NCBI RefSeq assembly: GCF_003838195.1
Contig: NZ_RCBY01000057.1
Coordinates: 1-37,771 of the forward strand
DNA from: Okeania hirsuta
GTDB lineage: Bacteria; Cyanobacteriota; Cyanobacteriia; Cyanobacteriales; Microcoleaceae
Reading direction: 5' to 3'
Length of the DNA: 37,771 nucleotides
Within the stretch, counting starts at the first letter, position 1; each line of letters opens with the position of its first letter. The notes below the pieces were generated by a model. That model saw only the letters and a list, made by a program, of their open reading frames with translations, did not search any database and had not been told where the DNA came from. This document shows, in pieces, positions 1,295 to 33,535 of this stretch. The position numbers and the translations under genes were made by a program.

Positions 1295-2722
1295 ATGTCT
1301 AAAACAATAGTCATCGACCCAGTAACTAGAATCGAAGGTCATGCCAAAATATCAGTAATATTAGATGATGCGGGAGAAGTATCCGACTGTAGATTTCATG
1401 TCGTAGAATATCGTGGCTTTGAAAAATTTTGTGAAGGGCGACCCTTTACAGAAATGGCAGGAATAACAGCTAGAATTTGTGGAATTTGCCCAGTAAGTCA
1501 TTTATTAGCTTCTGCTAAAACAGGGGATAAAATTCTCGCAGTGCAAGTTCCTTCCGCAGGAGAAAAATTGCGCCGAATGATGAATTTAGGGCAGTTAACT
1601 CAATCCCATGCTTTAAGTTTTTTCCATCTTAGTAGTCCTGATTTTCTATTAGGTTGGGATAGCGACCCAGCTAAACGAAATATCTTTGGTTTAATGGAGG
1701 AAAATCCAGATTTAGCTAGGGCAGGAATTCGACTTCGGCAGTTCGGTCAAACAGTCATAGAATTATTAGGAGCTAAAAAAATTCATGCTGCTTGGGCGGT
1801 ACCTGGTGGTGTACGTTCTCCCTTATCTGAAGAAGGGCGAAAATGGATAAAAAATCGTCTCTCAGAATCTTTTGAAACTACTAATATTGCTATTAGTTTG
1901 TTTAAGGGTTTATTAGACGATAAACTGAAAACTGAAGCCGAAGTTTTTGGTAAGTTTCCATCATTATTCATGGGATTAGTTGGCGCAAATGGTGACTGGG
2001 AACATTACGGCGGAAAGCTCAGGTTTACTGATAGTGAAGGTAATATTGTTGCTGATAATTTAAGCGAAGATAATTATCAGGAATTTTTAGGGGAAGCAGT
2101 GGAAAGTTGGTCTTATTTGAAGTTCCCTTATTACAAACCAATGGGTTATCCCGATGGAATTTATCGTGTCGGACCTCTTGCTCGTTTAAATGTTTGTTCT
2201 CAGATAGGTACAGAAAAAGCAGACCGAGAATTAAAAGAAATGCAAGAGCGGGTAGGTGGTGTTCCTACTTCTTCTTTCTTTTATCATTATGCTCGTTTGA
2301 TAGAAATTATTGCTTGTTTAGAAAGAATTGAACAATTGATAGATGACCCAGATATTGTTTCTCCTCGCACTCGCGCTACTGCTGGTATTAACTGTCTGGA
2401 AGGAGTGGGAGTTAGTGAAGCGCCAAGAGGTACTTTATTCCATCATTACAAAGTAGATGAAAATGGAATTATTCAGAAAGTAAATATGATTATTGCCACT
2501 GGTCAAAATAATCTGGCAATGAATCAAACTGTTACTCAAATAGCCAAACATTATATTCACAATAATCAAATTCCAGAAGGAATGTTAAACAGGGTTGAAG
2601 CAGGTATTCGAGCTTACGATCCTTGTCTCAGTTGTTCGACTCATGCAGCAGGTAAAATGCCATTACATATTCAATTAATTGCGGCAAATGGCAATATTTT
2701 AGATGAAGTTTATCGGAATTAA
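1295..2722 (+). CDS. hoxH: [NiFe] hydrogenase large subunit HoxH (bidirectional, NAD(P)-linked type)
   Basis: Large subunit of the cytoplasmic bidirectional [NiFe] hydrogenase, which holds the Ni-Fe(CN)2CO site and interconverts H2 with protons and electrons. Of its 475 residues, the N-terminal nickel-binding motif is [10 protein letters not shown] (Cys62, Cys65) and the C-terminal one is DPCLSCSTH (Cys444, Cys447, His450). The 25 residues after His450 are the tail expected to be removed by a HoxW-type protease during maturation, so the protein looks functional. The ATG is preceded by GGAGAG at 1280-1285. In cyanobacteria HoxH normally works with HoxY and the diaphorase HoxEFU. None of these lies in the 1.3 kb upstream, where only a broken nuclease and repeats are found, so the partners must be elsewhere. 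Downstream on the same strand follow ferredoxin, PAS and SpoIIE genes that may sense or modulate hydrogenase activity (inference). Confidence 0.96.
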
Positions 2723-3485
2723 AAGAAGGAAGAAGGAAGAAGGAAGAAGGAAGAGGGAAGAAAATTATCGATATAAAATTAACATCCTAGAAGTATCAAT
2801 AGGGGTGAAAATTTCCAACTCCCCATCACCAAAAATATCTTCCTGTAAAACAAGGAATAAATCAGAAGGAAGAAGGAAGAAGAAAGAAAATTATTAATAT
2901 CAAATTAACTTCCAAGAAGTATTAGTAGGGGTGAAAATTTCCAACTCCCTATGGCAAAAAATATCTTTCTTTTTGTTTTTTCTTGATGGCAAAGATTGAC
3001 TTTTGACTTCACCTATATTCACCTGATTCTTAGATGTAGCTTATGGCAATTAAAAGAAGGAATAAGCAAGAAGGAAAAAAATTATCAATATAAAATTAGC
3101 ATCCAAGAAGTATCAGTAGAGGTAAAAATTTCCAACTTCCTATCGCCAAAAATACAACATATTCCTCCCATAAATAAGAAGTATAGAGATTAACAATTAA
3201 ATATTTGTAGTGTGGGCATCTTGCCCGCGATGGATGTATCTCACCCTTAGTGGAATCTGTTGTATCTTTCTTTTTGTTTTTTCTTGATGGCAAAGATTGA
3301 CTTTTGACTTCACCTATATTCACCTGATTCTTAGATGTAGCTTATGGCAATTAAAAGAAGGAATAAGCAAGAAGGAAAAAAATTATCAATATAAAATTAG
3401 CATCCAAGAAGTATCAGTAGAGGTAAAAATTTCCAACTTCCTATCGCCAAAAATATCTTCCTATTTGTTTTTTATTGAGAGTTAA
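2723..3485. repeat. Direct-repeat cluster downstream of hoxH
   Basis: Positions 2962-3154 and 3263-3455 are an identical 193 bp direct repeat (offset 301). A related core of about 75 bp (AAGAAGTATCAGTAGAGGT...TTCCAACTTCCTATCGCC) also occurs in more divergent form near 2764-2840 and 2888-2965, giving four copies. AAGAAGG/GGAAGAA runs separate some copies. The interposed 3155-3262 segment contains GGGCATCTTGCCC, a small palindrome. Translated in phase, three copies give a similar peptide containing VKISN and SPKI, but one copy is interrupted by a stop and no ribosome-binding site is seen. I therefore regard this as non-coding repeat DNA. The remaining 3486-3735 has no recognisable gene. Confidence 0.8.
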
Positions 3486-3735
3486 AATTGACTTTTGACT
3501 TTACCTATACTCACCTTCTTCACTGTTAAATTTTTGTCTTTATTCTCTTAACTCTTTCTGACCAACTATTTTTATACCAATTTGAAAAAAGAATGCTAGA
3601 CTTAGATGAAACTTCAATTATTAAGTAATTAATACAGGTAAAATAACCTTTTTGATAATTATTAACCAGTTGGTGTTAATTATTATTATGTTTAGTTCTC
3701 CCCTACTCCCCCACTCCCCTACTCAAGAATGAACT

Positions 3736-4002
3736 ATGAAAAAAGAAAATTTATATCTTTGTATGGGTTCTGCTTGTCATCAACTAGGAGTTTATGAAGT
3801 ATTGCCCAAACTTCAAAGTATGATTAGCGAATATCACCTAGAAGACAAAATAGAATTAAAAGGTTCATTTTGTTTAGAATCTTGTAGTGATGGAATTGTA
3901 ATGAAATACAAAAACCAAGTATTCATCAAAATTAACCCCGAAAATATCGAACAAAAATTCCAAGCAGAAATCTTACCCACTATCAATAAACCAAAGGAGT
4001 AA
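3736..4002 (+). CDS. Thioredoxin-like [2Fe-2S] ferredoxin (NuoE/HoxE C-terminal-domain type)
   Basis: An 88-residue single-domain protein with the four-cysteine pattern of thioredoxin-fold [2Fe-2S] ferredoxins: C-x4-C at Cys9/Cys14 (CMGSAC) and C-x3-C at Cys46/Cys50 (CLESC). It corresponds to the C-terminal cluster domain of NuoE/HoxE subunits without the N-terminal helical bundle. It should be a cytoplasmic one-electron carrier. Its stop is six bases before the TTG start of the PAS gene, and AAGGAG (3994-3999) at its end serves that next gene, so the two are almost certainly co-translated. In anaerobic Firmicutes, small ferredoxins of this type sit beside PAS-containing [FeFe] hydrogenases and SpoIIE phosphatases, which matches the gene order here. 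The redox partner is unknown. HoxH/HoxY or the PAS protein are candidates by position only. Confidence 0.85.
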   Translation: MKKENLYLCMGSACHQLGVYEVLPKLQSMISEYHLEDKIELKGSFCLESCSDGIVMKYKNQVFIKINPENIEQKFQAEILPTINKPKE

Positions 4003-4008
4003 ATTATT

Positions 4009-4536
4009 TTGACTAACGAAAAAAATCTCTGGCAAATCCTCTGGGAATATGACCCCAATGGCTTAATTGTTGTTGACACCCAGATGAATATTACTCTAGT
4101 TAATCCAGCATTTTGTAAAATGTTTAATGTCAACCAAACAGAGATTATTGGTCAACCAGCATCTATAGTTTTAGAAGATTTAGCAGACTTTCAAAAAGTC
4201 TGGGAAAAAGATGAAGTAATTCGAGGAAAAGAAAAAAAATATAAACCTGAAAATCAAGCAAATTCTGAAGCAGATATTGTATATGTCAAAGAAGTAATTT
4301 TTCCCATTCGCGACCAAAATTTAATTGCTTGTATTATGGTTGATATTACCTATGAATGGCAACGAAAACAAGAAATGATTAATCTGAGAAACGAAACAGT
4401 TAGTAAAGTAAATGAAGTAGTCGATCATCAGATGAAAGTAGTGCAAGAAATTGCTGGTTTATTAGGAGAAACAACTGCTGAAACAAAAGTCAGTTTATTA
4501 AAAATTATCAAAATGGTAAATCAAGAGACTCTCTAA
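4009..4536 (+). CDS. Stand-alone PAS-domain protein with a hydrogenase-associated C-terminal helix
   Basis: A 175-residue cytoplasmic protein. Residues about 7-115 form a PAS fold (WEYDPNGLIVVDTQMNITLV, then NPAFCKMFNVNQTEIIGQPA, ending IACIMVDITYEW). Residues about 120-175 form a charged helix containing QEIAGLLGETTAETK (146-160). From memory of the family, this last motif is typical of the C-terminal end of PAS-bearing sensory [FeFe] hydrogenases (HydS/HfsB type) in Firmicutes. Here it is found without any hydrogenase domain. The start is TTG with AAGGAG at 3994-3999; no ATG lies close enough. There is no histidine kinase or GGDEF domain, so it should act through protein contact, perhaps with the ferredoxin upstream or the SpoIIE phosphatase downstream (inference). 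The ligand or cofactor is unknown. Confidence 0.8.
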   Translation: MTNEKNLWQILWEYDPNGLIVVDTQMNITLVNPAFCKMFNVNQTEIIGQPASIVLEDLADFQKVWEKDEVIRGKEKKYKPENQANSEADIVYVKEVIFPIRDQNLIACIMVDITYEWQRKQEMINLRNETVSKVNEVVDHQMKVVQEIAGLLGETTAETKVSLLKIIKMVNQETL

Positions 4537-5173
4537 TCAGGCAACAGGCAACAGGCAACAGGCAACAGTGTTATTATCCACATAAGTCCTAACCAACTCA
4601 TTCTTTGCTATAACATCTCCAGTTTAATATTAATTATGTCTGTGAAAATGGGTAATAAATAATTGATAATAAGCTGATAGCTGACCGAAAAATTTGGGTA
4701 GTTACGCCTCCTCTTTTAACAAGATAAAAAAAGAAGATTCCGTATTTCAACTCTCCTTATTGTACAGGTACTGGTAACTGATTGATATATATAGCAATCC
4801 TAAATCATTTGTGATAATTTTATCAAAATAATTGGGTCGCGCAACCCTGCCTTTAAGGCGAAATATTTTTGGAGAGTTGCTCAAATACCCGTTACAAAAA
4901 TAACTTCTGACTTCTGACTTCGTTAATGCTTAGGTGTTTCTTCCATATCTGTTCCCTGTTCCCTTTTCCCTGTTACCGAATAATTAATAATTAATAATTA
5001 AATAATTCTGGTTTAAAGCCTCCTCTTTTAAGGGAAAAAAAAAGAAAATATTCCTGATATTCAATTCCGTAACGGTTTTAACCAGAGGTAATTATCAATT
5101 ATCCATTATCCATTAATGAACTATTCCCTGCTCCCTATTCCCTATTCCCACAACTCAAATAAGATTGATATAA
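4537..5173. repeat. Spacer with heptamer array and two copies of a dispersed intergenic repeat
   Basis: After the PAS stop comes a heptamer array (CAACAGG, about four copies, 4539-4568). Two copies of a dispersed element follow, at about 4683-4759 and 4974-5092. Each carries ACCGAA, then GCCTCCTCTTTTAA, an A-rich stretch and a pyrimidine/purine end. Related copies occur at 6699-6800 and, inverted, at 15605-15690 and 15911-15950. Between them is a TTAATAA heptamer run (4980-5002). No gene is visible, so the SpoIIE gene may have its own promoter despite being in line with the PAS gene. Confidence 0.65.
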
Positions 5174-6337
5174 ATGGAAAATTTTTTAGATATTTACAAT
5201 TTTAGTCTCAATAAAAAAGGCGAAGAATTATGTGGCGACCAAGTTAAATTCCGCAAAGTCGAAAATAAAACTATTATCGTTTTGTCTGATGGTTTAGGCA
5301 GTGGTGTAAAAGCTAATATTCTAGCCACTTTAACCACAGAAATTTTGATTAATATGTTGAATAATGATGACGTTTCTTTAGAAGATGTAATTGAAACAGT
5401 CATCGGTACTTTACCTATTTGTCAAGTTAGAAAAATTGCCTATGCTACCTTTACCGTAATTCAAATTAATCCCAAAAATAATAACTTTCTAGTAATTAAC
5501 TTTGATAACCCTCCCGTTTTATATTTTAAAAAAGGTAAATTATTTCAGTTAGAAAACAAAACAGAAAAAATATTAGATAAAAAAATTACTTTCTCTGAAG
5601 GTAAGCTAGAAAAAGGCGATTTCTTAGGAGCTATTAGTGACGGAGTTTTGTACGCGGGTTTAGGAGTTAGTTTAAATTTTGGTTGGGGTTGGGATAATAT
5701 TGCTAAATATATCGAATCTTTATTTATAAATCATACTCATACTGCTAGAAATATTGTTCAAAATGTCATTAAAAAAACTCATAATCTCTATGGAGGCAAA
5801 ATTGGAGATGATGCCTCTTTCGTTGGAATTTATGTGCGAAAGAAAAATCCAGTAATGATATTTACAGGTCCGCCCCTAGATGAAAATAGAGATTTTGAAT
5901 ATGTAGAAAAATTATTAAATTTTCGCGGTCGGAGAGTTGTTTGTGGCGGAACAACTGGAAATATTGTGGCAAATTTTCTGGGAGAAACTATTGAAATGGA
6001 TATTACGACGATGACTAAAGAAATGCCACCCATAGGTAAATTAAGTGGAATAGATTTAGTGACCGAAGGAATTTTAACTATTTCCAAATGTACAGAGATT
6101 TTGAAAAAGTCTAATTGCGATATTGGCAGGTTGCCTTCAGGAAAAAATGGTGCGGTGATGTTGGCAGAAGAAATATTAGAAGCAGATTCAATTTTATTTT
6201 TAGTAGGGCAAAAAATTAATGAATTTTATCAAAATCCTTTATTACCAAAAAATATTTCGATTCGTCGTAATTTAATAGAAGACTTAGTTCAATATTTGCG
6301 GAAAAAACAGAAAGAAGTAACTATAGAATATTGTTGA
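5174..6337 (+). CDS. SpoIIE-type PP2C serine/threonine phosphatase with a hydrogenase-cluster-type C-terminal domain
   Basis: A 387-residue protein. The N-terminal half (about 1-225) is a PPM/PP2C domain of the SpoIIE class with the metal-binding acidic motifs IIVLSDGLGSGVKA, LGAISDGVLYAGLG and GKIGDDASFVGIYV. The C-terminal part (about 226-387) has VMIFTGPPLDENRDFEYVEK, VVCGGTTGNIVA and GIDLVTEGILT. From memory, this two-part architecture is that of SpoIIE proteins encoded next to [FeFe] hydrogenases in Clostridia and Thermoanaerobacter relatives; it differs from stress-response SpoIIE proteins, which carry GAF or receiver domains. Metal-binding aspartates appear to be present, so it should be active on phosphoserine/threonine. 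Its substrate is unknown and no anti-sigma kinase or antagonist gene lies nearby. It is separated from the PAS gene by 637 bp of repeats, and no clear ribosome-binding site is seen before the ATG. A link with HoxH regulation is inference. Confidence 0.88.
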   Translation: MENFLDIYNFSLNKKGEELCGDQVKFRKVENKTIIVLSDGLGSGVKANILATLTTEILINMLNNDDVSLEDVIETVIGTLPICQVRKIAYATFTVIQINPKNNNFLVINFDNPPVLYFKKGKLFQLENKTEKILDKKITFSEGKLEKGDFLGAISDGVLYAGLGVSLNFGWGWDNIAKYIESLFINHTHTARNIVQNVIKKTHNLYGGKIGDDASFVGIYVRKKNPVMIFTGPPLDENRDFEYVEKLLNFRGRRVVCGGTTGNIVANFLGETIEMDITTMTKEMPPIGKLSGIDLVTEGILTISKCTEILKKSNCDIGRLPSGKNGAVMLAEEILEADSILFLVGQKINEFYQNPLLPKNISIRRNLIEDLVQYLRKKQKEVTIEYC

Positions 6338-7546: not shown

Positions 7547-8219
7547 AAAATAGTAACTATCTTATATCAAATCCGGTTAAACAGTTATAGATTGGTAGTC
7601 TTTAGGAGTCAGTCCTCAGTCCTCAGTCCTCAGCTAGAGTAGCTGTCGGTAGGGCGACGTACAGGAGGAGAGAGAATCACTTTGATGAGCGTAGTTATGA
7701 GGATTGGATATTTTTTTTATGTCCAATTCCCCCGGATTTGAGATCAAACCACAGAAGAGTTTAAAACATGAAACGTCCTAGTTCTGTTTAATATCCAGTC
7801 TCATTAATTAGCCATAATAAATAGCCATAATAAAAATGTTCTTCTCTTGAGAGAGAATATTTTTTCGGTGCGGAATGCTGCGCAAACAAAATTTCCATTG
7901 TTTTCTACTCCCTAGAGATGTTGCATGCAACCTCCCTGCCCCTAAATTTTTCCGAAGTGGTTATTCAAACAGACATTAGAGTTGTCGCTAAATAAAGGGA
8001 AAAAATCACTCTAACCTAGACAGAGCAATAATTCCCAGCATTTTTGCCATCCAATAACTACAATCCTTACAGAACAAGGTTTTTGGGGAATTTTTAAGTT
8101 ATAAAGCGACAAGTCTATTATAGTCAGATTTTTTCTTTTAGCGCTGAAAATAATATCCAATACTCTTTGAGCGATTCAACAAAAATGCTAGTCACAAAAC
8201 AATGATTTAGGAAAAATTA
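7547..8219. repeat. Gene-free spacer with a heptamer array and a 63 bp repeat shared with the far end
   Basis: A heptamer array (AGTCCTC, about three copies) lies near 7606-7632. Positions 8058-8120 are identical over 63 bases to 36470-36532, beside an IS4-family remnant, so this is probably an orphan insertion-sequence end or a small non-autonomous derivative. I see no gene elsewhere in the stretch. Confidence 0.7.
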
Positions 8220-8404: not shown

Positions 8405-9571
8405 CTAGCGGATATATTCTTTGAGGATACTATTACGATTTGGATGTCGTAACTTCCTGAGAGCTTTTGCTTCAATTTGTCGAATCCGCTCGCGAGTTAC
8501 ATTAAATATTTGACCAATCTCTTCCAAAGTTTTCATCCGACCATCATCCAAACCATATCGTAAGCGTAATACATCCCTTTCCCGTGGACTTAAACTATTT
8601 AAAACACTTTCCAAATCTTCTCGTAGTAAATTTTTGGATACTTGGTCTTCAGGAGTTTCCCCATCTGACTCAATGAAATCTCCAAGTCGAGAATCTTCTT
8701 CTTTACCTATAGGAGTTTCCAGAGATATTGGCAGTTGAGCTGACTTAGCAATAAAACGCAACTTTTCGATAGTCATCTCCATGTGAGTTGCTATTTCCTC
8801 TTCTGTGGGTTTGCGACCCATTTCTTGAGAAAGAAGTTTGGTAGTTTTCTTAATCCGGGATATAGTTTCATACAGATGAACTGGTAGACGAATAGTACGA
8901 GATTGGTCTGCGATCGCTCTGGTAATAGCTTGACGAATCCACCAAGTTGCATAAGTACTAAATTTATAACCCTTTTCATGGTCAAATTTTTCTGCGGCTC
9001 GAATTAATCCCAAACTACCTTCTTGAATCAAATCTTGGAATGACAAACCTCGGTTCATGTACTTTTTGGCGATCGAAACCACTAGACGCAGGTTAGACTG
9101 TACCATCTTTTCTTTAGCTCTACGCCCAAGTATTAAGCGACGCTTAAACTTTAACAACTCCATGTCTACAGCATTTGCCCACTCACTAACTTGTGGTTCT
9201 CGATCCAAATGATACATTAGTTCTTCTCGAATTCGCTCCAATTCCAGTAAATCTGCAATTTTACGCGCTAGTTCAATTTCTTCATCAGCTCTTAATAGCC
9301 TAATTCGTCCTATTTCTTGTAGATAAAGGCGAATAGAATCTTCAGTGTAATGCTTTTTTTTGCCCGCAGTCGCAGTCTTAGTACGAGACTTAGCAACTTT
9401 ACCAGACTTCAGAATGTCCTCATCAGACTGAGTATCTGTATATCCTTCTCTCTCTGTGATTAAGATGTCTAACTCATTATCTGGTTGTCTGGCTGGGGTT
9501 TGCGGAAACAATTCGCTAGGATCTAGCTCAGGCTTAATTTTGGTTTCGATTACGTTGTTAGTCTGGATCAT
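8405..9571 (-). CDS. sigA: Primary RNA polymerase sigma factor (group 1, SigA/RpoD)
   Basis: A 388-residue housekeeping sigma-70. Region 1.2 is seen as [16 protein letters not shown], region 2 as [20 protein letters not shown] followed by [18 protein letters not shown] and [14 protein letters not shown] (-10 recognition and melting). Region 3 is the [15 protein letters not shown] segment. Region 4 is [17 protein letters not shown] and the helix-turn-helix [20 protein letters not shown] (-35 recognition). The short, basic N-terminus ([14 protein letters not shown]) is usual for cyanobacterial SigA. On the minus strand the start is preceded by AAGGAG and, closer, GAGGAA (about 9583-9578). It directs transcription of vegetative and photosynthesis genes. 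It is single in its neighbourhood, with a long gene-free leader region on its 5' side. Confidence 0.95.
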
Positions 9572-14132: not shown

Positions 14133-14377
14133 AGGGCTTGCTGATTAAATCTCAAAGTATTTACAGATAAAAGTTTTAGCCTTTTTGGGGTCGAATTGCA
14201 GTGCGCCTGTTTCAGTCTAAAACCCTCAAAAAGGAGCGTATTTTAGGCGCATAGTTGGGCAGAAAAATTATTCTTACAATTCTTACTCCTACCTCCTCTA
14301 AGTAACCATGTCTCCTGTCTCCTGTCTCCTATCTCCTGTCTCCTACCCTCACCCATAAGACTTTTTCAGCAAACCCT
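14133..14377. mobile_element. MITE-like element with 20 bp terminal repeats abutting the secF stop codon
   Basis: AGGGCTTGCTGATTAAATCT (14133-14152) and AGACTTTTTCAGCAAACCCT (14358-14377) are inverted copies matching at 16 of 20 bases. The interior is non-coding and includes an inverted pair near 14184-14233 (GCCTTTTTGGGG... with AAAAAGGAGCG) and a heptamer array CCTGTCT (14307-14345). The last two bases of the right end are the final bases of the secF stop codon, so insertion may have supplied or replaced the end of secF. No clear target duplication is seen. The remaining 13992-14132 holds only a partial copy of the TATACCAATTTAATC repeat. Confidence 0.65.
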
Positions 14378-15362
14378 AAACAGTATTTTCTTGGTCTTCT
14401 GGTAATTGAAAATTTTCTACTACTGGGTTAGGAATAGATTGACCAATACGCTCGCGCCACCAAGCTAAAAGTGTACTAGCAATAAAAATACTAGAGTAAG
14501 AACCTGCAATAAAACCAATAATTAAAGCTAAGGCAAAATACTTTAAAGTTTCACCACCAAATAGAAGAATGCCTACTAACGGTAATAGAGTAGTCACAGT
14601 AGTATTAATAGATCTGGTCAAAGTTTGATTGACTGCATCATCAACAATACGATCTATTGACTCTCCTGGATAGCGCTTAATTACTTCCCTAACTCGGTCA
14701 TAAATTACCACTGTATCGTTAACCGAAAATCCAATAATAGTTAGTAGAGCAACCAAGAATAAACTATCTACCTCAACACCAACTACTAAACTAATAATTG
14801 AAAAAATACCCACCGTCACTAATATGTCATGGAACAGAGCGACAAAAGCAAATACTGCATAGTCCAACTGGAATCTAAAAGTTAGATAGACAGTAATACC
14901 AAAGAAAGCAACCAGGAGAGCTGATATTCCAGAAGTAAAAATTTGTCGTCCCAAAGTAGGGCCAACAGTATCAATTTGTGTAGAACTTGGATCGAATTCA
15001 CCAAACTCTGAACTTAAAGCAGCGATTAATTTAGTTCTATTATCAACATCTAGAGTTTTGGTGCGTATGTCAAGAGCTTGTTTTTCTTCTCCTACAACTT
15101 GAATCTTGCTATTACCTAAATCTTGATTGCTCATTATTTCTCTAACAGCACCAACGTTAATAGCTTCATTACAACTGTTAGGCATACTGCAATCTAGTTC
15201 AAGTTGCAGGCGAGTACCACCAACAAAATCTAAACTTGGACGTAAAGGAGCTGCAATATCTGGCCTAGTCCAAGAAATGACCATTGCAATTAAACCACTA
15301 ATGATGATCGCTCCTGAAATTGTCCACCATAGTGATCGCTGTTCAATAACACTGATTTTCAT
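14376..15362 (-). CDS. secF: Protein translocase subunit SecF
   Basis: A 328-residue inner/thylakoid membrane protein of the RND superfamily. With SecD it uses the proton gradient to help SecYEG release and pull exported proteins. Visible features are a first transmembrane helix (about 12-32), the SecD/F signature [12 protein letters not shown] (about 46-57), a periplasmic domain to about 130, and then five further helices. These include the conserved motif [20 protein letters not shown] with its charged Asp/Arg pairs. Length is typical for cyanobacteria. It lies downstream of secD on the same strand but across a 775 bp repeat-rich gap with a terminator-like hairpin, whereas these genes are usually adjacent. 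The stop codon overlaps the end of a MITE-like insertion, so the extreme C-terminus may be altered. Confidence 0.95.
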
Positions 15363-16079
15363 TTTTTACTGATTTTATAGAATAGGTGCTAGGGAATAGG
15401 GAACAATTAATAATTAATAATTAATAATTAATAACTAGACAGTGCAAAGTTCTTGAAATAACTATTCCTAGCTAAGGCTTTCAGCGCTCTAAAGGTTAAA
15501 AACTCTTTATTCAGAGCTGTAAGTACTGTAAGGTTTTACAGTAATACTTTCAGCCTTCAATGCAAATTTTTCTTGGGAAGAACTTTGTACTCTCCAGACT
15601 AATAATCACCTTTCCTTTAAAACGGATAGGATTTACTAATCATAAAAATTTTTCTTTATTATCCTCTTATTATCCCCTTAAAAGGCTATCCATTACCCAC
15701 ATCTTCCTTAACATAAAACTTGACAAAATAGACGAGTTATGTGTAAGTCTTGGATCGGCTTTTTCGGGATAAACAATGTATGGAAAAATACATTTATTTT
15801 GACAACTTCAGTAGTTTTACTTAGCTACTATGATTTTTTCCCCTTTCTCCCCTGCTCCCTGCTCCCCTTCTCCCCACAAGGGTTTCAAGACTTATGGGTA
15901 AAGGATAGCTTAAAAGAGGAGGCTTTACACCACAAATTTTCGGTAAAAGGGTTTTAGGATTGAAAAATGTCCCCGCCCAATTCTTGTACTGCTATATAAC
16001 TGATTTTATAGAGGTCGGAACTGACCTCGCATCCCGATGTATTGTGATTAAAATAACGTTTACTTGAAAAAAGTGGGCT
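15363..16079. repeat. Repeat-filled gap between secD and secF
   Basis: Contents, in order: a TTAATAA heptamer array (about 15407-15433); an inverted copy of the dispersed GCCTCC element (about 15605-15690); a partial inverted copy of the same family (about 15911-15950, GAGGAGGCTTTACACC then CGGTAAAAGG); and a small hairpin GAGGTC/GACCTC (16011-16016 with 16023-16028). No gene is recognised. Open frames in this stretch are short and lack ribosome-binding sites. Confidence 0.65.
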
Positions 16080-16132
16080 GGACTAACCATTTAAAGACAA
16101 ATAAGCGTTTTGGTTAGATTTGTGGTTAGTCC
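16080..16132 (-). terminator. Stem-loop just after secD
   Basis: GGACTAACCA (16080-16089) and TGGTTAGTCC (16123-16132) are perfect complements with a 33-base loop. The stem lies only a few bases beyond the secD stop codon. On the minus strand it is followed by AGCCCACTTTTTTCAAG, so a T run comes about eight bases after the stem. It may terminate secD transcription before secF. The long loop makes this tentative. Confidence 0.45.
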
Positions 16133-16136
16133 TACT

Positions 16137-17522
16137 TCAATTTAACTCTGGGCAAAATAATTTTGGTTTGCGGAATTGGGAAAAACCGATCGCCCAAAAC
16201 ATTAGAGTACGACTACAAGTAACAGCAGTAAACATACTAATAGCTACACCAATTCCCAAGGTTAGAGCAAAACCTTTTACCAAACCAGTTCCTAACCAGA
16301 ATAGTGCTATGCAAGCAATCAAGGTTGTGACATTACCATCTAAAATGCTGGAAAAAGCCCGATAAAAGCCAGACTCTACAGAACGATATAAAGTTTTACC
16401 AGCTCGTAACTCTTCCCTTGTCCGTTCAAAAATCAAAACATTAGCATCAACTGCCATACCAATACTCAGAATAAAACCAGCAATTCCTGGCAATGTTAAA
16501 GTCACTCCCAAGATGGCAAAACTAGCAATGGTAAACAGAGCATAAATAACTAAAGCTACATCAGCAATTATCCCAGGAAGTCGATAATAAACGACCATAA
16601 ATATTAATACCAGAATTAGGCCACCAGCTCCAGCATAAACACTACGCTGAATACTATCTCGCCCTAGAGTAGCCCCAACAGTTCGATTTTCCACAATTTC
16701 TACTGAAACAGGCAGTGCCCCACCCCGCAGTTGTACTGCCAATTCATTTGCTTGTTGGGCTGTAAATCTACCTTGAATTACCGCATTACCACCAGTAATA
16801 CCTGTTTCTGCAAATTCTACGCCAACAGTAGGGGCACTTAAAAGTTGGTCATCTAAGAAAATACCGATACTACGTCCAGTTCCTGCTAAATTTTTGGTAA
16901 GTTCTGCAAACTTCTGCCCTCCTTCAGAGGTAAAGCGCAAGGCCACATTCCAGTTATTAGACCCAGGAGCTTCCGGTTCTGCTAAAGCATCTCTCAGATC
17001 TTGGCCTTTAATTGTGGGTTCTTTGAATAGTCCAGTGATCGCTTGATTTGTTTTTTCTAGAGATTCTAAATTTTTAGCTATAGCCTCTGGATCTTCAATA
17101 TTTTTCAGTAATTCTTGCTCTACTAAACGTTGTCTTTGTAGTTGATATTCTATTGCTAACTGTTGCTCAGTACCCTGTAGTTGTTCGCGGAAGTCCAGTT
17201 GAGCTGTCCCTCCTAAAACCCTTTCTGCTTGTTCAGGGTCGTTTACTCCTGGTAGTTGGACAAGAATTTGGTCTTGTCCTAAAGATTGAACTACTGATTC
17301 TGATACACCTAGAGCATTGACTCGATTTTCTACAATTTTTAGTACTCCTTCCATGACTCGTTCGTCGATAGTGGGAACTTCTTCAGAGGTTTGTAGTTGA
17401 ATAGTAAGTTGTGACCCACCTCGAAGGTCTAGTCCCAGTCGAATTGGAATTTGATTCAATACTGTTACTGATGCTATTACTAGAACCAGAATTAAGGCTA
17501 TATATGAATTTTGTCTGCGCAT
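16137..17522 (-). CDS. secD: Protein translocase subunit SecD
   Basis: A 461-residue RND-type membrane protein that works with SecF in proton-driven protein export. It has a first transmembrane helix (about 7-25), the signature GLDLRGGSQLTIQL, and a periplasmic P1 region with the motif ILVQLPGVNDPEQAERVLGG. This is followed by a head region and LRGGALPVSVEIVENRTVGA. A five-helix membrane block follows, with GIAGFILSIGMAVDANVLIF and ERTREEL carrying the conserved Asp and Arg residues. It appears complete. A decayed second copy of its 5' two-thirds lies just upstream (17673-18212), followed by pdhB, so the conserved cyanobacterial order pdhB-secD-secF is kept but interrupted. No ribosome-binding site is seen; the start aligns with that of the duplicate (MRRQNSYIAL in both). 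Confidence 0.95.
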   Translation of the reverse strand: MRRQNSYIALILVLVIASVTVLNQIPIRLGLDLRGGSQLTIQLQTSEEVPTIDERVMEGVLKIVENRVNALGVSESVVQSLGQDQILVQLPGVNDPEQAERVLGGTAQLDFREQLQGTEQQLAIEYQLQRQRLVEQELLKNIEDPEAIAKNLESLEKTNQAITGLFKEPTIKGQDLRDALAEPEAPGSNNWNVALRFTSEGGQKFAELTKNLAGTGRSIGIFLDDQLLSAPTVGVEFAETGITGGNAVIQGRFTAQQANELAVQLRGGALPVSVEIVENRTVGATLGRDSIQRSVYAGAGGLILVLIFMVVYYRLPGIIADVALVIYALFTIASFAILGVTLTLPGIAGFILSIGMAVDANVLIFERTREELRAGKTLYRSVESGFYRAFSSILDGNVTTLIACIALFWLGTGLVKGFALTLGIGVAISMFTAVTCSRTLMFWAIGFSQFRKPKLFCPELN

Positions 17523-21080: not shown

Positions 21081-21853
21081 CTCTTTCAATATTTCCGATA
21101 GAGCTTTGTCGATCAAATTCTCCTCTAGCAAGTAAGCCCACTTTCAATGTCGGGTTTTTGAGTTAGTTAGATGCTAATATTAACCTTTTACTGGATTGTC
21201 TGAGCAGCTTTAATTGCTAATTTTACTATATTAATTTGATCCGGTTTTAATTTATTCTCATTCCTATACTTCATTAACTAACTTATTTGATCATTCTCAG
21301 TCCCAAATTTTGATTTACTAATTTATCCTCCCTACCCTTCTTTCTGCTTGTAGGTAGTAGCTTGTAGGTGTAGCACACCGCAGTTAAAAATTGGGTTATT
21401 AACCCCACAACTCACGCGCATTGTCTACAACTTTAGTTAGGGTTAATCAGAAGGTGTTAGGTTTTAGCCCACATTCCGCACTTCAAGAGCGTATCATTAA
21501 AAGTAGTATATGAATCTGTAGCTTGGTAAGTATTTATACTATGCAAATCATCTATACTATGCAAATCATCTCAATACTTTTTTCGTTGATCAAATTCCTA
21601 GTAAAAAATTTACGCATAAATACTTGCTCTGATGATGACTCAATCACGGCAGCTATAATTTTCTTCTAAAATTCTGTCTCCTGTCTCCTGTCTCCTGACT
21701 CCTTCTTCGGTTGCTACATTTTGTGGTGCGGAATGTGGGTTTTAGTAGCACGGTAAGCTTTTTTCACCACCTACGAACTACGACCTACAATCTACGACCT
21801 TCTTTAAATATTTAATTAATTTTTATTTGTATTCATATAAAAAGAGCTTAGCA
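21081..21853. other. dnaA upstream spacer
   Basis: No gene and no DnaA box. It contains a perfect tandem pair of 18 bp (TATACTATGCAAATCATC at 21535-21552 and 21553-21570), a CCTGTCT heptamer array (21674-21700), and two copies of the dispersed ACATT(TTGTGGTG)CGGAATGTGGG repeat (21469-21490 inverted; 21713-21742). The paired 18-mers about 285 bp before dnaA could be a regulator site, but this is a guess. Confidence 0.5.
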
Positions 21854-23221
21854 GTGGAAATTTCTCTTGATAATTTGTGGAACCAAGTTTTAGAAAGATT
21901 GCAATTACAATTAAGCCGACCTACTTTTGAAACATGGATTAAAACAGCCAATGCCCAACAACTAGAAAATAATTGTTTGGTAATTTGTACACCTAACCCT
22001 TTTGCTCGAAATTGGTTACAGAAATACTATGTAAAAACTATTGCTGATGTTGTACATGATATTCTCGGTCATCCTGTAGAAATTTACCTAACTACGACAG
22101 TGGGAGAAAGTGTGGGTAAAGATAATTCAGAACTTATATGGTCTGAAAATAAGGTTGCCGATCTTTCAGAAAGTTTATCTAATCAAAAGCCTAAACCAGC
22201 AAATCTAAATCCGAAATATATGTTTTCTAGGTTTGTTGTGGGTCCGAATAATCGTATGGCTCATGCAGCTTCTTTAGCAGTAGCAGAATCTCCAGGAAGA
22301 GAGTTTAATCCTTTATTTTTATGTGGTGGAGTAGGTTTAGGAAAAACTCATTTAATGCAAGCTATAGGTCATTATCGTTTGGATATTTTTTCTGATTCTC
22401 AAATATTTTATGTTTCTACGGAAAAGTTTACTAATGATTTAATTGCTGCTATTCGTAAAGATAGCCTCCAAAGTTTTAGAGAACATTATCGAACTGCCGA
22501 TGTTTTGTTAGTAGATGATATTCAATTTATTGAGGGCAAAGAATATACCCAAGAAGAGTTTTTTCATACTTTTAATACTTTGCATGAAGCTGGCAAACAA
22601 GTAGTATTGGCTTCCGATAGACCTCCTAATCAAATTCCTAGTTTACAAGAACGTCTTTGCTCTCGGTTTTCTATGGGATTAATTGCTGATATTCAAGCTC
22701 CAGACCTGGAAACTAGGATGGCAATTTTACTGAAAAAATCTGAGTATGAAAATATGATTTTGCCTAGGGATGTAATAGAGTATATCGCCTCTAGATATCC
22801 TTCAAATATTCGGGAGTTGGAAGGTGCTTTGACTAGGGTTGTTACTTATATTTCTATTTCAGGTTTGCCGATGACTGTAGAGAATGTCGCACCTATTTTA
22901 AATCCACAAAATGAAAAATTAGAGGCATCTCCAGAAGCAGTTATTAAGGCTGTTTCAGAAGTTTTTAATGTGTCTATAGAAGATTTAAAAGGAAGTTCTA
23001 GAAAACGAGAAATTACTTTGGCCAGACAAGTTGGAATGTTTTTGATGCGACAACATACTGATTTAAGTCTGCCAAAAATTGGGGAGTTTTTTGGTGGAAA
23101 GGACCATACAACTGTTATATATAGTTGCGATAAGATTGCCCAGCTACAAAAGAATGATTTAAACTTAGGCCAAACTCTCAGGCAGTTGAGCGATCGGATT
23201 AATTTTTCTAGTCGTCATTAA
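21854..23221 (+). CDS. dnaA: Chromosomal replication initiator DnaA
   Basis: The initiator AAA+ ATPase that binds DnaA boxes and opens the origin. From the chosen GTG start it is 455 residues beginning V(M)[19 protein letters not shown], which is the normal cyanobacterial N-terminus. An earlier TTG at 21827 would add nine unlikely residues. Domain I covers about 1-85. The AAA+ module follows, with Walker [14 protein letters not shown], Walker [10 protein letters not shown] and sensor 2 [12 protein letters not shown]. Domain IV ends the protein with the DnaA-box-binding signature [20 protein letters not shown] and [10 protein letters not shown]. All motifs are intact. The candidate origin lies 0.4 kb downstream. 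dnaN, often near dnaA, is also downstream but separated by about 3 kb of insertion-sequence debris. Confidence 0.96.
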
Positions 23222-26199: not shown

Positions 26200-27363
26200 A
26201 TGAAATTAACTTGTACTCAAAGTGACTTAAATAGTAATCTTTCTCTGGTCAGTCGTGCAGTTCCTTCTCGCCCTAACCACCCAGTATTGGCAAATGTTTT
26301 ATTAATAGCAGATGTAGAAAATCAACGCTTAGAATTAACAGGGTTTGACTTAAGTTTAGGTATTCGTTCAAATTTTCCGGCAGTTGTAGAAACAGGTGGG
26401 AGTTTTACTTTACCGGCCAAATTATTTAATGATATTGTCTCCAGATTACCAGATGGTAATATTACCATTGATGATGATGAAGGGGAAGCGATCGCCACTC
26501 TTACTTCTACATCTGGTCGTTATCAAGTTAGAGGTATGGGAGGAGAGGAATATCCGGAATTACCAGATGTGGAAGGTGGGGAGGTTGTCAATTTACCACC
26601 GGAAGCTTTGATTAATGGTTTGAGAGGAACTTTATTTGCCACAAGTCCTGATGAAACAAAACAAGTGTTAACAGGAGTACATTTAAAAGTACAAAAAGAT
26701 GGTTTAGAATTTGCAGCAACTGATGGTCATAGATTAGCAATTGTTAAGACTGAAAGTGTGGCACCAGAGGGTGAGTCAGAAGTAGAAGAGATTGAAGAAA
26801 TTGAAGAGTTTGAAGTAACAATTCCTGCAAAAGCTTTACGAGAGGTTGAACGAATGATTGGAATGCGTCAATCATCTGAAGCTGTTGCCTTGAGATTTGA
26901 TGAAGGTCAGGTAATTTTTGAGCTAGGAGAACAATGTTTAACGAGTAGAAAATTGGAGGGTCAATATCCAGCTTACGGACAATTATTACCTGATAAGTTT
27001 ACTAATCAAATTAATGTTAATAGGAAAGAATTTTTAGGAGCGGTGGAAAGAATTGCTGTTTTGGCTGACCAAAAGAATAATATTTTGAAGTGTTCTATTG
27101 ATAGTGTTAATCAGGAGATTTCTTTATCTGTAGATGCTCAAGATGTTGGTAGTGGTAGAGAGTCTATGGCAGCACAAATTTCTGCTGATGAACCGGAAGA
27201 AATTGCTTTTAATGTGAAATATTTGATTGAAGGGTTAAAGGCTATTCCTTCAGCTTCAGAAATTTCAATTCAGTTAAATACTGCTACAAGTCCGGTGGTT
27301 TTAAATCCATTGGGTGGGGTGAAAATGACTTATTTAATTATGCCTGTTCAGTTGAGAAATTAG
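26200..27363 (+). CDS. dnaN: DNA polymerase III beta subunit (sliding clamp)
   Basis: A 387-residue clamp that forms a dimeric ring on DNA and tethers polymerase III. Three clamp domains can be followed: 1-125 (MKLTCTQSDLNSNLSLVSRA, NHPVLANVLL), 130-255 (LRGTLFATSPDETKQVLTGV, AATDGHRLA) and 260-387 (FLGAVERIAVLADQKNN, ending YLIMPVQLRN, the usual C-terminal motif). An acidic stretch (EGESEVEEIEEIEEFE, about 190-205) sits in the second domain and is somewhat longer than in many relatives. The protein looks intact. It is on the same strand as dnaA, but transcription from dnaA is unlikely to reach it through about 3 kb of insertion-sequence remnants, so it should have its own promoter. Confidence 0.96.
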   Translation: MKLTCTQSDLNSNLSLVSRAVPSRPNHPVLANVLLIADVENQRLELTGFDLSLGIRSNFPAVVETGGSFTLPAKLFNDIVSRLPDGNITIDDDEGEAIATLTSTSGRYQVRGMGGEEYPELPDVEGGEVVNLPPEALINGLRGTLFATSPDETKQVLTGVHLKVQKDGLEFAATDGHRLAIVKTESVAPEGESEVEEIEEIEEFEVTIPAKALREVERMIGMRQSSEAVALRFDEGQVIFELGEQCLTSRKLEGQYPAYGQLLPDKFTNQINVNRKEFLGAVERIAVLADQKNNILKCSIDSVNQEISLSVDAQDVGSGRESMAAQISADEPEEIAFNVKYLIEGLKAIPSASEISIQLNTATSPVVLNPLGGVKMTYLIMPVQLRN

Positions 27364-32347: not shown

Positions 32348-33535
32348 CTAAACTTTTACCGCCTCAGCAAACCTAATCTTCAAATAATCATCCTCCATTT
32401 TTGCCCCCGCAGGTTGCAAAGCTGCCAAAGCTTGAGGCAAAACCAAATTCCGACGATGATTACCAATTCTAATATTCAACTCATCGCCAGTTTTATTCAA
32501 TTGAATTTTCTCTTTAGGAATTCCAGGCAAATATAATTGCAAATTATAATTACCCTTTTCTTGCACTACCTTAACAGTATTTTCCTTATAATAAACCTGA
32601 CTAGGATCTTCATCTCCATACAAAGTTTCTTTCAATCTTTCCAAAGCAGCCAAACCACACATCTCCTCAGAATAAAGAGGTACTTCTTTCACTGGCAAAG
32701 GTCTAAAATTATCGTGAATTTCTTGCCGATATTGCTGTTGATTTTCCTTCCACTTTTTAAAGAAAGGGTCAGTCACAGAATCAGGAATAATCCGATTAGC
32801 TACTACTAAATCTGTAGAAACATTGTACAAACTTAAATAAGCATGAGCGCGTAAAGACTCTTTAATTACCATCTTTTCAGGATTAGTAACTAACCGTACA
32901 GAAGTCTTTGTATTATCAGTTAAAACCTTTTCCAAAGCCTCAATTTGTTCATAAAATTCATAAGGAGCATCCATCACTTCCTTATCAGGCAAAGAAAAAC
33001 CAGTAATAGGTTTAAAAATAGGTTCAAAAAGAGGTCTTAATGCTACCGACATTCCCTGCAAAGGCTTATAAAACTTCCTCATATACCAACCTCCCACTTC
33101 CGGCAAACTCAAAAGTCGCAAAGCAGTACCAGTCGGAGCAGAATCAATAATTAAAACATCATATTCGCCCTCATCATAGTGACGCTTCATCCGCACCAGA
33201 CCAAAAATTTCATCCATTCCCGGCAAAATTGCCAACTCCTCAGCTTGCACACCATCCAAACCCCGCGCCTGCAAAACCTGAGTAATATAACGTTTTACAG
33301 CTCCCCAGTTTCCCTCCAGTTCCATCAAAGCGTCCAACTCAGCACCCCAAAGATTTTCCCTAACCTTCCGAGGTTCGTGGCTCATTTCCATATCAAAGCT
33401 ATCTGCTAGAGAGTGAGCTGGATCGGTGCTGAGAACCAGAGTTTTATGGCCTAACTCCGCACAACGTAATCCCGTTGAGGCGGCCACTGATGTTTTCCCA
33501 ACCCCACCTTTTCCTGTCATTAATATTACACGCAT
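32348..33535 (-). CDS. ArsA/Get3-like ATPase with C-terminal HSP20-like domain
   Basis: A 395-residue soluble P-loop ATPase of the ArsA/TRC40 (Get3) group. It has the deviant Walker [14 protein letters not shown] (Gly8-Thr15), the switch I-like [13 protein letters not shown], switch II-like [13 protein letters not shown], and [11 protein letters not shown] in the ATPase domain. Residues about 320-395 form a small beta domain like alpha-crystallin/HSP20 ([41 protein letters not shown]), an extension found on many cyanobacterial and chloroplast-lineage members. The Cys ligands for arsenite of true ArsA are not evident, so a role in chaperoning hydrophobic proteins or targeting them to membranes is more likely than arsenite export. 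No arsB or membrane partner is nearby. The protein looks complete. Confidence 0.88.

Follow-up and report, generated by a model that had tools for sequence, protein, structure and literature searches.

The question raised by this locus is why a cyanobacterium should carry, behind the gene for the large subunit of its bidirectional [NiFe] hydrogenase (hoxH), three genes of a kind that accompanies sensory [FeFe] hydrogenases in Firmicutes. The window examined here is an entire 37.8-kb contig (37,771 nucleotides) of the draft genome of Okeania hirsuta (8.8 Mb in 716 contigs), and the three genes, called the trio below, encode a TRX-like [2Fe-2S] ferredoxin (TRX), a PAS protein, and a SpoIIE/PP2C phosphatase. 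The original prediction, made from the letters of the window, proposed that the trio is coupled to the Hox hydrogenase, and at the level of gene content and co-occurrence this was supported. Probably the trio is a module of the HydS type that has shed the hydrogenase domain and been rewired to the Hox operon, with a helix of the PAS protein controlling the phosphatase in trans; the signal, the substrate, and the direction of control in this model we infer.

Open reading frames (ORFs) and Pfam searches confirmed the four predicted genes, all on the forward strand: hoxH at 1295..2722 (475 amino acids, with the C-terminal extension, the motif RICGICP, and the Ni-binding CxxC pairs in its translation), the TRX gene at 3736..4002 (88 amino acids), the PAS gene at 4009..4536 (175 amino acids), and the phosphatase gene at 5174..6337 (387 amino acids). 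The top NCBIfam match of the large subunit was VhuA, below the cut-off; that it might not be HoxH was rejected on the gene order of relatives, which shows hoxH. Chimerism or contamination was ruled out by the equal gene order in congeners and other families. The window lacks hoxY, hoxU, and hoxF (the rest of the genome, G000, was not searched for hoxE, F, U, or Y), and because congeners carry hoxF-hoxU-hoxY (L024 and L041) or hoxU-hoxY (L026) just upstream of hoxH, the window appears to begin late, inside a hox cluster. Compared with the congeners L024 and L026, dN/dS was 0.06 for HoxH and 0.03-0.07 for TRX; compared with these two and L027 from another genus, it was 0.10-0.13 for the PAS protein and 0.07-0.09 for the phosphatase. 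The trio and hoxH are under purifying selection, and an arrangement that recurs in the same order across many relatives with dN/dS of 0.03-0.13 is not a chance one.

The TRX protein contains a Cx4C...Cx3C pattern (cysteines 9, 14, 46, and 50), the four cysteines of which are invariant in nine aligned cyanobacterial and clostridial proteins, and by this pattern it is a putative [2Fe-2S] ferredoxin with a NuoE/HoxE-type C-terminal half. Its PF01257 match (21.6 bits, profile positions 65-139 of 145) was below the curated cut-off of 24.8, and weak matches to the NuoE and HoxE models lay far below theirs.

The PAS gene starts with TTG behind AAAGGAG, and several PAS models matched its product above cut-off. 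The output tail of the protein, QEIAGLLGETTAETK (conserved over residues 137-166, 4417..4506 on the forward strand), matches the tail of clostridial HydS, including the LLGETTAETK that follows PAS in the HydS family. An H-cluster domain is missing from this ORF of only 175 amino acids, as is the Cx2Cx4Cx16C [4Fe-4S] motif that precedes PAS in HydS (PMC8163306), the sole cysteines being residues 36 and 108. The stand-alone protein is a counterpart of the HydS C-terminus, and the claim that it retains only the part 3' of the hydrogenase domain held. In an alignment of 38 cyanobacterial and 79 HydS rows, the tail QMxxxQEIAxLLGETTAETK was common to both sets and the PAS core differed. Q141, M142, I148, A149, L152, G153, E154, T156, and A157 were invariant in both, and V137, Q146, L151, T155, T159, K160, and L163 reached at least 96% in both; tail neighbours that differed were V/I138, K/R143, and G/S150. 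The core residues W8, W12, Y14, C36, and W65, present in 97-100% of the cyanobacterial rows, are not the HydS majority residues. Judged from these sequences, the PAS input has apparently changed and the output tail has been kept. The structural model (mean predicted local distance difference test score, pLDDT, 91) showed a PAS domain followed by a single helix (residues 114-174) that includes the tail and after which the protein ends, with no histidine kinase domain. Short LOV proteins and LOV kinases were the nearest solved folds; NifL-FAD and FixL stood lower in the list.

The phosphatase matched PF07228 (SpoIIE) with 55.9 bits (cut-off 25). Its model (pLDDT 92.7) consists of a PP2C domain, which begins at the N-terminus, and an alternating alpha/beta domain, and the best PDB match was SpoIIE 5mqh. 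D39, G40, D156, G157, D212, and D213 were invariant in 56 phosphatase sequences; the acidic residues D39, D156, D212, and D213 are thus retained, and the metal-binding ones among them are presumably those identified in SpoIIE. The C-terminal alpha/beta domain (residues 226-386, 5849..6331 on the forward strand) had no Pfam match, is also found in clostridial phosphatases, and contains CGGT and DLVTEG, conserved across phyla. Over the full length, including this domain, the cyanobacterial phosphatases are 36-44% identical to HydS-type relatives. The protein thus combines the features of the HfsC type, a PP2C domain with conserved acidic residues and the shared C-terminal domain, and is a predicted phosphatase of the HydS-associated type. 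We take HfsC of Thermoanaerobacterium saccharolyticum to be the same as the HydS-associated SpoIIE phosphatase.

Records of Ruminococcus albus and Monoglobus and the sequence of Acetoanaerobium confirmed that such a trio is the companion of sensory [FeFe] HydS in Firmicutes. Among plasmid records, tblastn located both the phosphatase and the PAS part in three from Bacillota. Plasmid pRUMAL01 of R. albus carries rex, adhE, a phosphotransferase, two (2Fe-2S) proteins, an [Fe-Fe] hydrogenase with the PAS part, the SpoIIE phosphatase, and a 4Fe-4S protein (which matches the HydA2-type hydrogenase by construction of the query), and the gene order in Monoglobus is similar. Acetoanaerobium noterae has an unlinked hydrogenase-type pair, with the phosphatase (L184 6983) and HydS (L185 5774) about 0.9 Mb apart. 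A genome scan returned at least 568 relatives, of which the best 80 loci were kept by likeness to the Acetoanaerobium phosphatase and not to that of the window, so closer outgroups may be missing. They come mostly from Bacillota, and also from Bacteroidota, Treponema, and Calditrichales. The protein upstream of the phosphatase had an H-domain and PAS in 75 loci, was a frame-broken HydS in 3, and was cut by a contig end in 2; TRX before HydS was usual, not universal. Five loci considered as stand-alone PAS trios were rejected: L192 and L230 are cut at contig ends with the HydS cysteine motif upstream and the H-domain itself out of view, and in L206 (3347-5084), L254 (3397-5225), and L259 (6303-7995) HydS is frame-broken beside an open phosphatase frame. 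Clustering of neighbours, named by eye, gave HydS-like proteins in 77 loci, the phosphatase in 75, and TRX in 50; others recurring in at least 6 loci were bifurcating-hydrogenase subunits, ABC-transporter parts, Rex-like proteins, AdhE, and a MATE-like transporter, with no kinase among the neighbours recurring that often. Closest relatives in unrelated stress-response loci, the alternative raised by the original prediction, were not seen, since the 80 kept loci carry HydS-type partners. Of 292 genomes sampled in the same phylum, 101 belong to lineages outside the class and have the phosphatase (224-312 bits), and an H-domain HydS lay beside it in 20/20 opened loci.

Two phosphatase trees were built, both with four short or broken rows dropped (L040-L043) and the second additionally without eight cyanobacterial rows that were nearly identical and six rows of other origin with long branches. 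The cyanobacterial phosphatases formed one side of one branch (42/42 rows in the first tree, 34/34 in the second) on a long stem; a set centred on Bacillota and the other lineage of the phylum formed separate groups, and neither root nor donor was fixed. The trees do not show transfer from Firmicutes, which had been raised as a possibility.

The tie to Hox was examined in 388 genomes drawn evenly over the class (160 genera), with thresholds of E<=1e-20 for the phosphatase, E<=1e-25 for PAS, and E<=1e-100 for HoxH. The PAS profile (A7, 16 rows) and the phosphatase profile (A1, 9 rows) were made from carriers, and those rows match by construction. Phosphatase and PAS were each found in 27 genomes, the identical 27, and TRX was detected in all of them. 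HoxH was present in 127 genomes, among them all 27 carriers, and none of the 261 genomes below the HoxH threshold had the trio (Fisher p 1e-14, kinship of the genomes being ignored); the co-occurrence spans 18 of the 160 genera. A family sample of 61 genomes gave 21 phosphatase matches at E<=1e-3, of which 20 were kept, G027 being excluded for a weak match of 46 residues (E 2e-4). HoxH (E<=1e-50) was found in 27 of the 61, and 4 more showed only a 28-30% identical partial match to another large subunit. Nineteen of the 20 phosphatase genomes had HoxH, and 8 HoxH genomes had no phosphatase. The exception, G004, is an assembly 83% complete in which the contig begins 81 bases before the PAS gene. 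The trio without hox genes, the finding said beforehand to speak against coupling, thus appeared in 0/27 class genomes and 1/20 of the family (the incomplete G004); the association stands, and universal linkage to hoxH does not. The [FeFe] H-domain was absent from 27/27 trio genomes at E<=1e-5 and detected in 2/2 positive controls, so the absence of an [FeFe] hydrogenase noted at the locus extends to the rest of these genomes, and a hidden one elsewhere was rejected.

In most carriers the trio lies inside the hox gene cluster. The whole trio followed hoxH on the same strand in 18 of the 27 (including G000 and G047), the gap ranging between a few bases and 3.5 kb (G194); in 13 of these 18 the next hox gene was hoxW. 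The order in genus g10 was hypC (opposite strand), hoxE, hoxF, hcp, hoxU, hoxY, hoxH, TRX, PAS, phosphatase, hoxW, hypA, hypB, and further on hypF (L032, L031, and L036). The hybrid cluster protein gene hcp occupies 4020-5669 of L032, and the Lyngbya hox operon likewise contains hcp (PMC2674450). In G052 (L355 9542-11577) a full g10-type hox-hyp cluster runs directly from hoxH to hoxW with all three genes missing, and the trio therefore comes and goes as a unit. Among 12 inspected trio-less hoxH loci, hoxW was next to hoxH also in G345 (sister of the trio-bearing G439 on the HoxH tree), G013, G032, G110, and G078; one small opposite-strand ORF separated the two in G002, and hoxW was not seen near hoxH in the other 5. 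On a HoxH tree of 76 rows (27 with and 49 without the trio; 51 of the 127 HoxH genomes were left out), the distribution of the trio takes 11 changes, either gains or losses (10-12 in bootstraps), of which 5 or more are forced, compared with 22.4 in shuffles. In G003 (L043 8491-11408), the reading frames of hoxH and the trio genes look broken, and on the same contig those of hoxU and hypF too, from decay or poor assembly.

Because the PP2C domain starts at the phosphatase N-terminus and the conserved helix sits on the PAS protein, we propose control in trans. In the dark or under anoxia, the Hox enzyme or its diaphorase would determine how far the small [2Fe-2S] protein is reduced, TRX passing electrons from either. 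The redox state of TRX, or else a cofactor bound in the remodelled PAS core, could then alter the PAS dimer, and the long C-terminal helix, with its QMxxxQEIAxLLGETTAETK face, may engage and switch the phosphatase in trans, by analogy with the cis linkers of RsbU. The phosphatase in turn might act on a protein phosphorylated at Ser/Thr through which fermentation or hydrogenase metabolism is adjusted. RsbU becomes active when its linkers pair into a coiled coil and thereby bring the phosphatase domains together as a dimer, and the authors of that work suggest a toolkit of exchangeable parts (PMC12143880). Ethanol rose in T. saccharolyticum when hfsA or hfsB was deleted, but not when hfsC, hfsD, both of these, or the complete operon was; HfsA/B therefore seem to act through C/D, and deletion of hfsA also reduced expression of B, C, and D (PMC5707799). 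A broader conception, which we put forward tentatively and at somewhat less than an even chance, is a portable output module of PAS tail and phosphatase, excised from an [FeFe] sensor and attached to a catalytic [NiFe] hydrogenase, with Hox itself serving as the H2 or redox sensor of Ser/Thr phospho-signalling.

Several observations weigh against a HydS-derived module rewired to Hox. HoxH occurred without the trio in 100 of the 127 class genomes, so Hox works without it. Linkage was partial in 2 of the 27 carriers (hoxH-TRX-PAS with the phosphatase elsewhere in G443; hoxH-TRX only in G417) and lost in 7, on other contigs of drafts in G099, G323, G375, and G419 and inside large contigs in G309, G358, and G381. 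G358 and G381 have TRX-PAS at one place and phosphatase-hoxW at another; the genes are scattered in the four f8 genomes (G443, G417, G358, and G381), and since all three are retained there, the parts persist even without linkage. In L174, L175, L176, and L181, none of the hydrogenase types searched for lay beside the unlinked trio. No kinase or STAS partner was seen in the hox clusters. In HydS of the phylum's other lineage, LLGEHMV replaces LLGETTA in 19 of the 20 opened loci (L326-L345, e.g., L326 HydS at 7902; none was found in L341), so the motif does not require its TT; the same variant weakens the tail phospho-threonine as a candidate substrate. Zheng et al., as reported in PMC5707799, proposed that the HydS signal passes via PAS to an adjacent Ser/Thr kinase, which lies outside the present model. 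H2 did not reduce the C-terminal cluster of TamHydS, a relative from group D that lacks PAS (PMC13104023), so more than one signal route is conceivable even in the hydrogenase type.

Some of this would fit a trio that is kept with hox for a shared condition such as dark fermentation, sensing oxygen, flavin redox, or a metabolite and controlling fermentation enzymes with no Hox contact. The cyanobacterial core residues W8, W12, Y14, C36, and W65, un-HydS-like as if for a new ligand, the likeness of the PAS model to LOV domains with NifL-FAD and FixL further down, the seven unlinked trios, and the increased adhE expression after hfsB deletion in T. saccharolyticum (PMC5707799) all point that way. 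However, dependence on HoxH (27/27 carriers; 0/261 below the threshold) is stricter than a general fermentation sensor needs, and we consider this account unlikely.

Two further accounts were weighed. TRX could simply be a supplementary electron carrier for the Hox diaphorase, an accessory akin to HoxE, with PAS and phosphatase as passengers; it is nearest to hoxH, stays there in G417 with the other two elsewhere, and resembles the NuoE and HoxE models weakly, with scores far below their cut-offs. The retention of PAS and phosphatase in 27/27 genomes, even when moved, and their purifying selection make passengers of them very improbable. Alternatively, the hox link might reflect inheritance only, an old functionless insertion between hoxH and hoxW, and the single clade of cyanobacterial phosphatases means that linkage may have arisen once. 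Yet with some 11 changes of state on the HoxH tree, 5 or more of them forced, no class-sample carrier lacks HoxH, and the low dN/dS and joint retention after scattering render mere inheritance hardly credible.

A HydS-derived module tied to Hox resembles the HydS/HfsB [FeFe] loci (R. albus; T. saccharolyticum hfsABCD) in its PAS-bearing protein followed by a phosphatase, usually with TRX before it, and in the same C-terminal tail; unlike them, its PAS protein has no H-domain or Fe-S motifs, its partner is a [NiFe] Hox operon, and no second [FeFe] hydrogenase adjoins. It shares the PP2C fold and a predicted long helix as candidate switch with the RsbU/SpoIIE PPM phosphatases, but the helix is on a separate protein, an extra C-terminal domain is present, and no RsbT, RsbW, or STAS was seen nearby. 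The regulatory HoxBC/HoxJ of Ralstonia eutropha likewise joins a [NiFe] hydrogenase and a PAS protein in one locus (PMC5707799), whereas HoxH here is a subunit of HoxEFUYH and a phosphatase takes the place of the histidine kinase as the presumed output. The hoxEFUYH clusters of Lyngbya, Synechocystis, and Anabaena sometimes include hcp and have hoxW downstream (PMC2674450 and PMC3858816); unlike the trio, the ORFs named there behind hoxH are a transmembrane protein, xisH, xisI, and others. No description of a hox-PAS-SpoIIE link was found in the open-access literature, where passing mention inside papers is possible and most subscription papers lie outside its scope. The PAS/phosphatase unit of the HydS type is known, and the version without an H-domain, tied to Hox, is apparently new.

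The regulation and purpose of the cyanobacterial bidirectional hydrogenase are an open question in biohydrogen work. The trio is a possible unrecognised route by which some cyanobacteria report hydrogen or redox state, and a signalling cassette that co-occurs with Hox gives a concrete gene set for studying Hox regulation. Natural PAS proteins without a hydrogenase isolate the output half of putative [FeFe] hydrogen sensors and make the PAS-phosphatase step accessible without an oxygen-sensitive enzyme. Finding the interaction partners of such hydrogenases has been called critical (PMC13104023).

The two spacers of the window measure about 1 kb (hoxH-TRX, 2723..3735) and 0.64 kb (PAS-phosphatase). 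The former, longer than in most class-sample loci, bears a 193-nt direct repeat, identical at 2962-3154 and 3263-3455 (301 nt apart), with a third copy at 60% at 2771-2963. At the contig start (1-134), a 44-nt sequence (GGTAGGTTGGGTTAAGCGG...) occurs in two identical copies 90 nt apart. The window also contains dnaA/dnaN (21827-23221 and 26200-27363, about 19-24 kb from hoxH) and, on the reverse strand, genes for a sigma-70 factor (8405-9571), SecF/SecD-like proteins (14376-17522), and ArsA (32348-33535).

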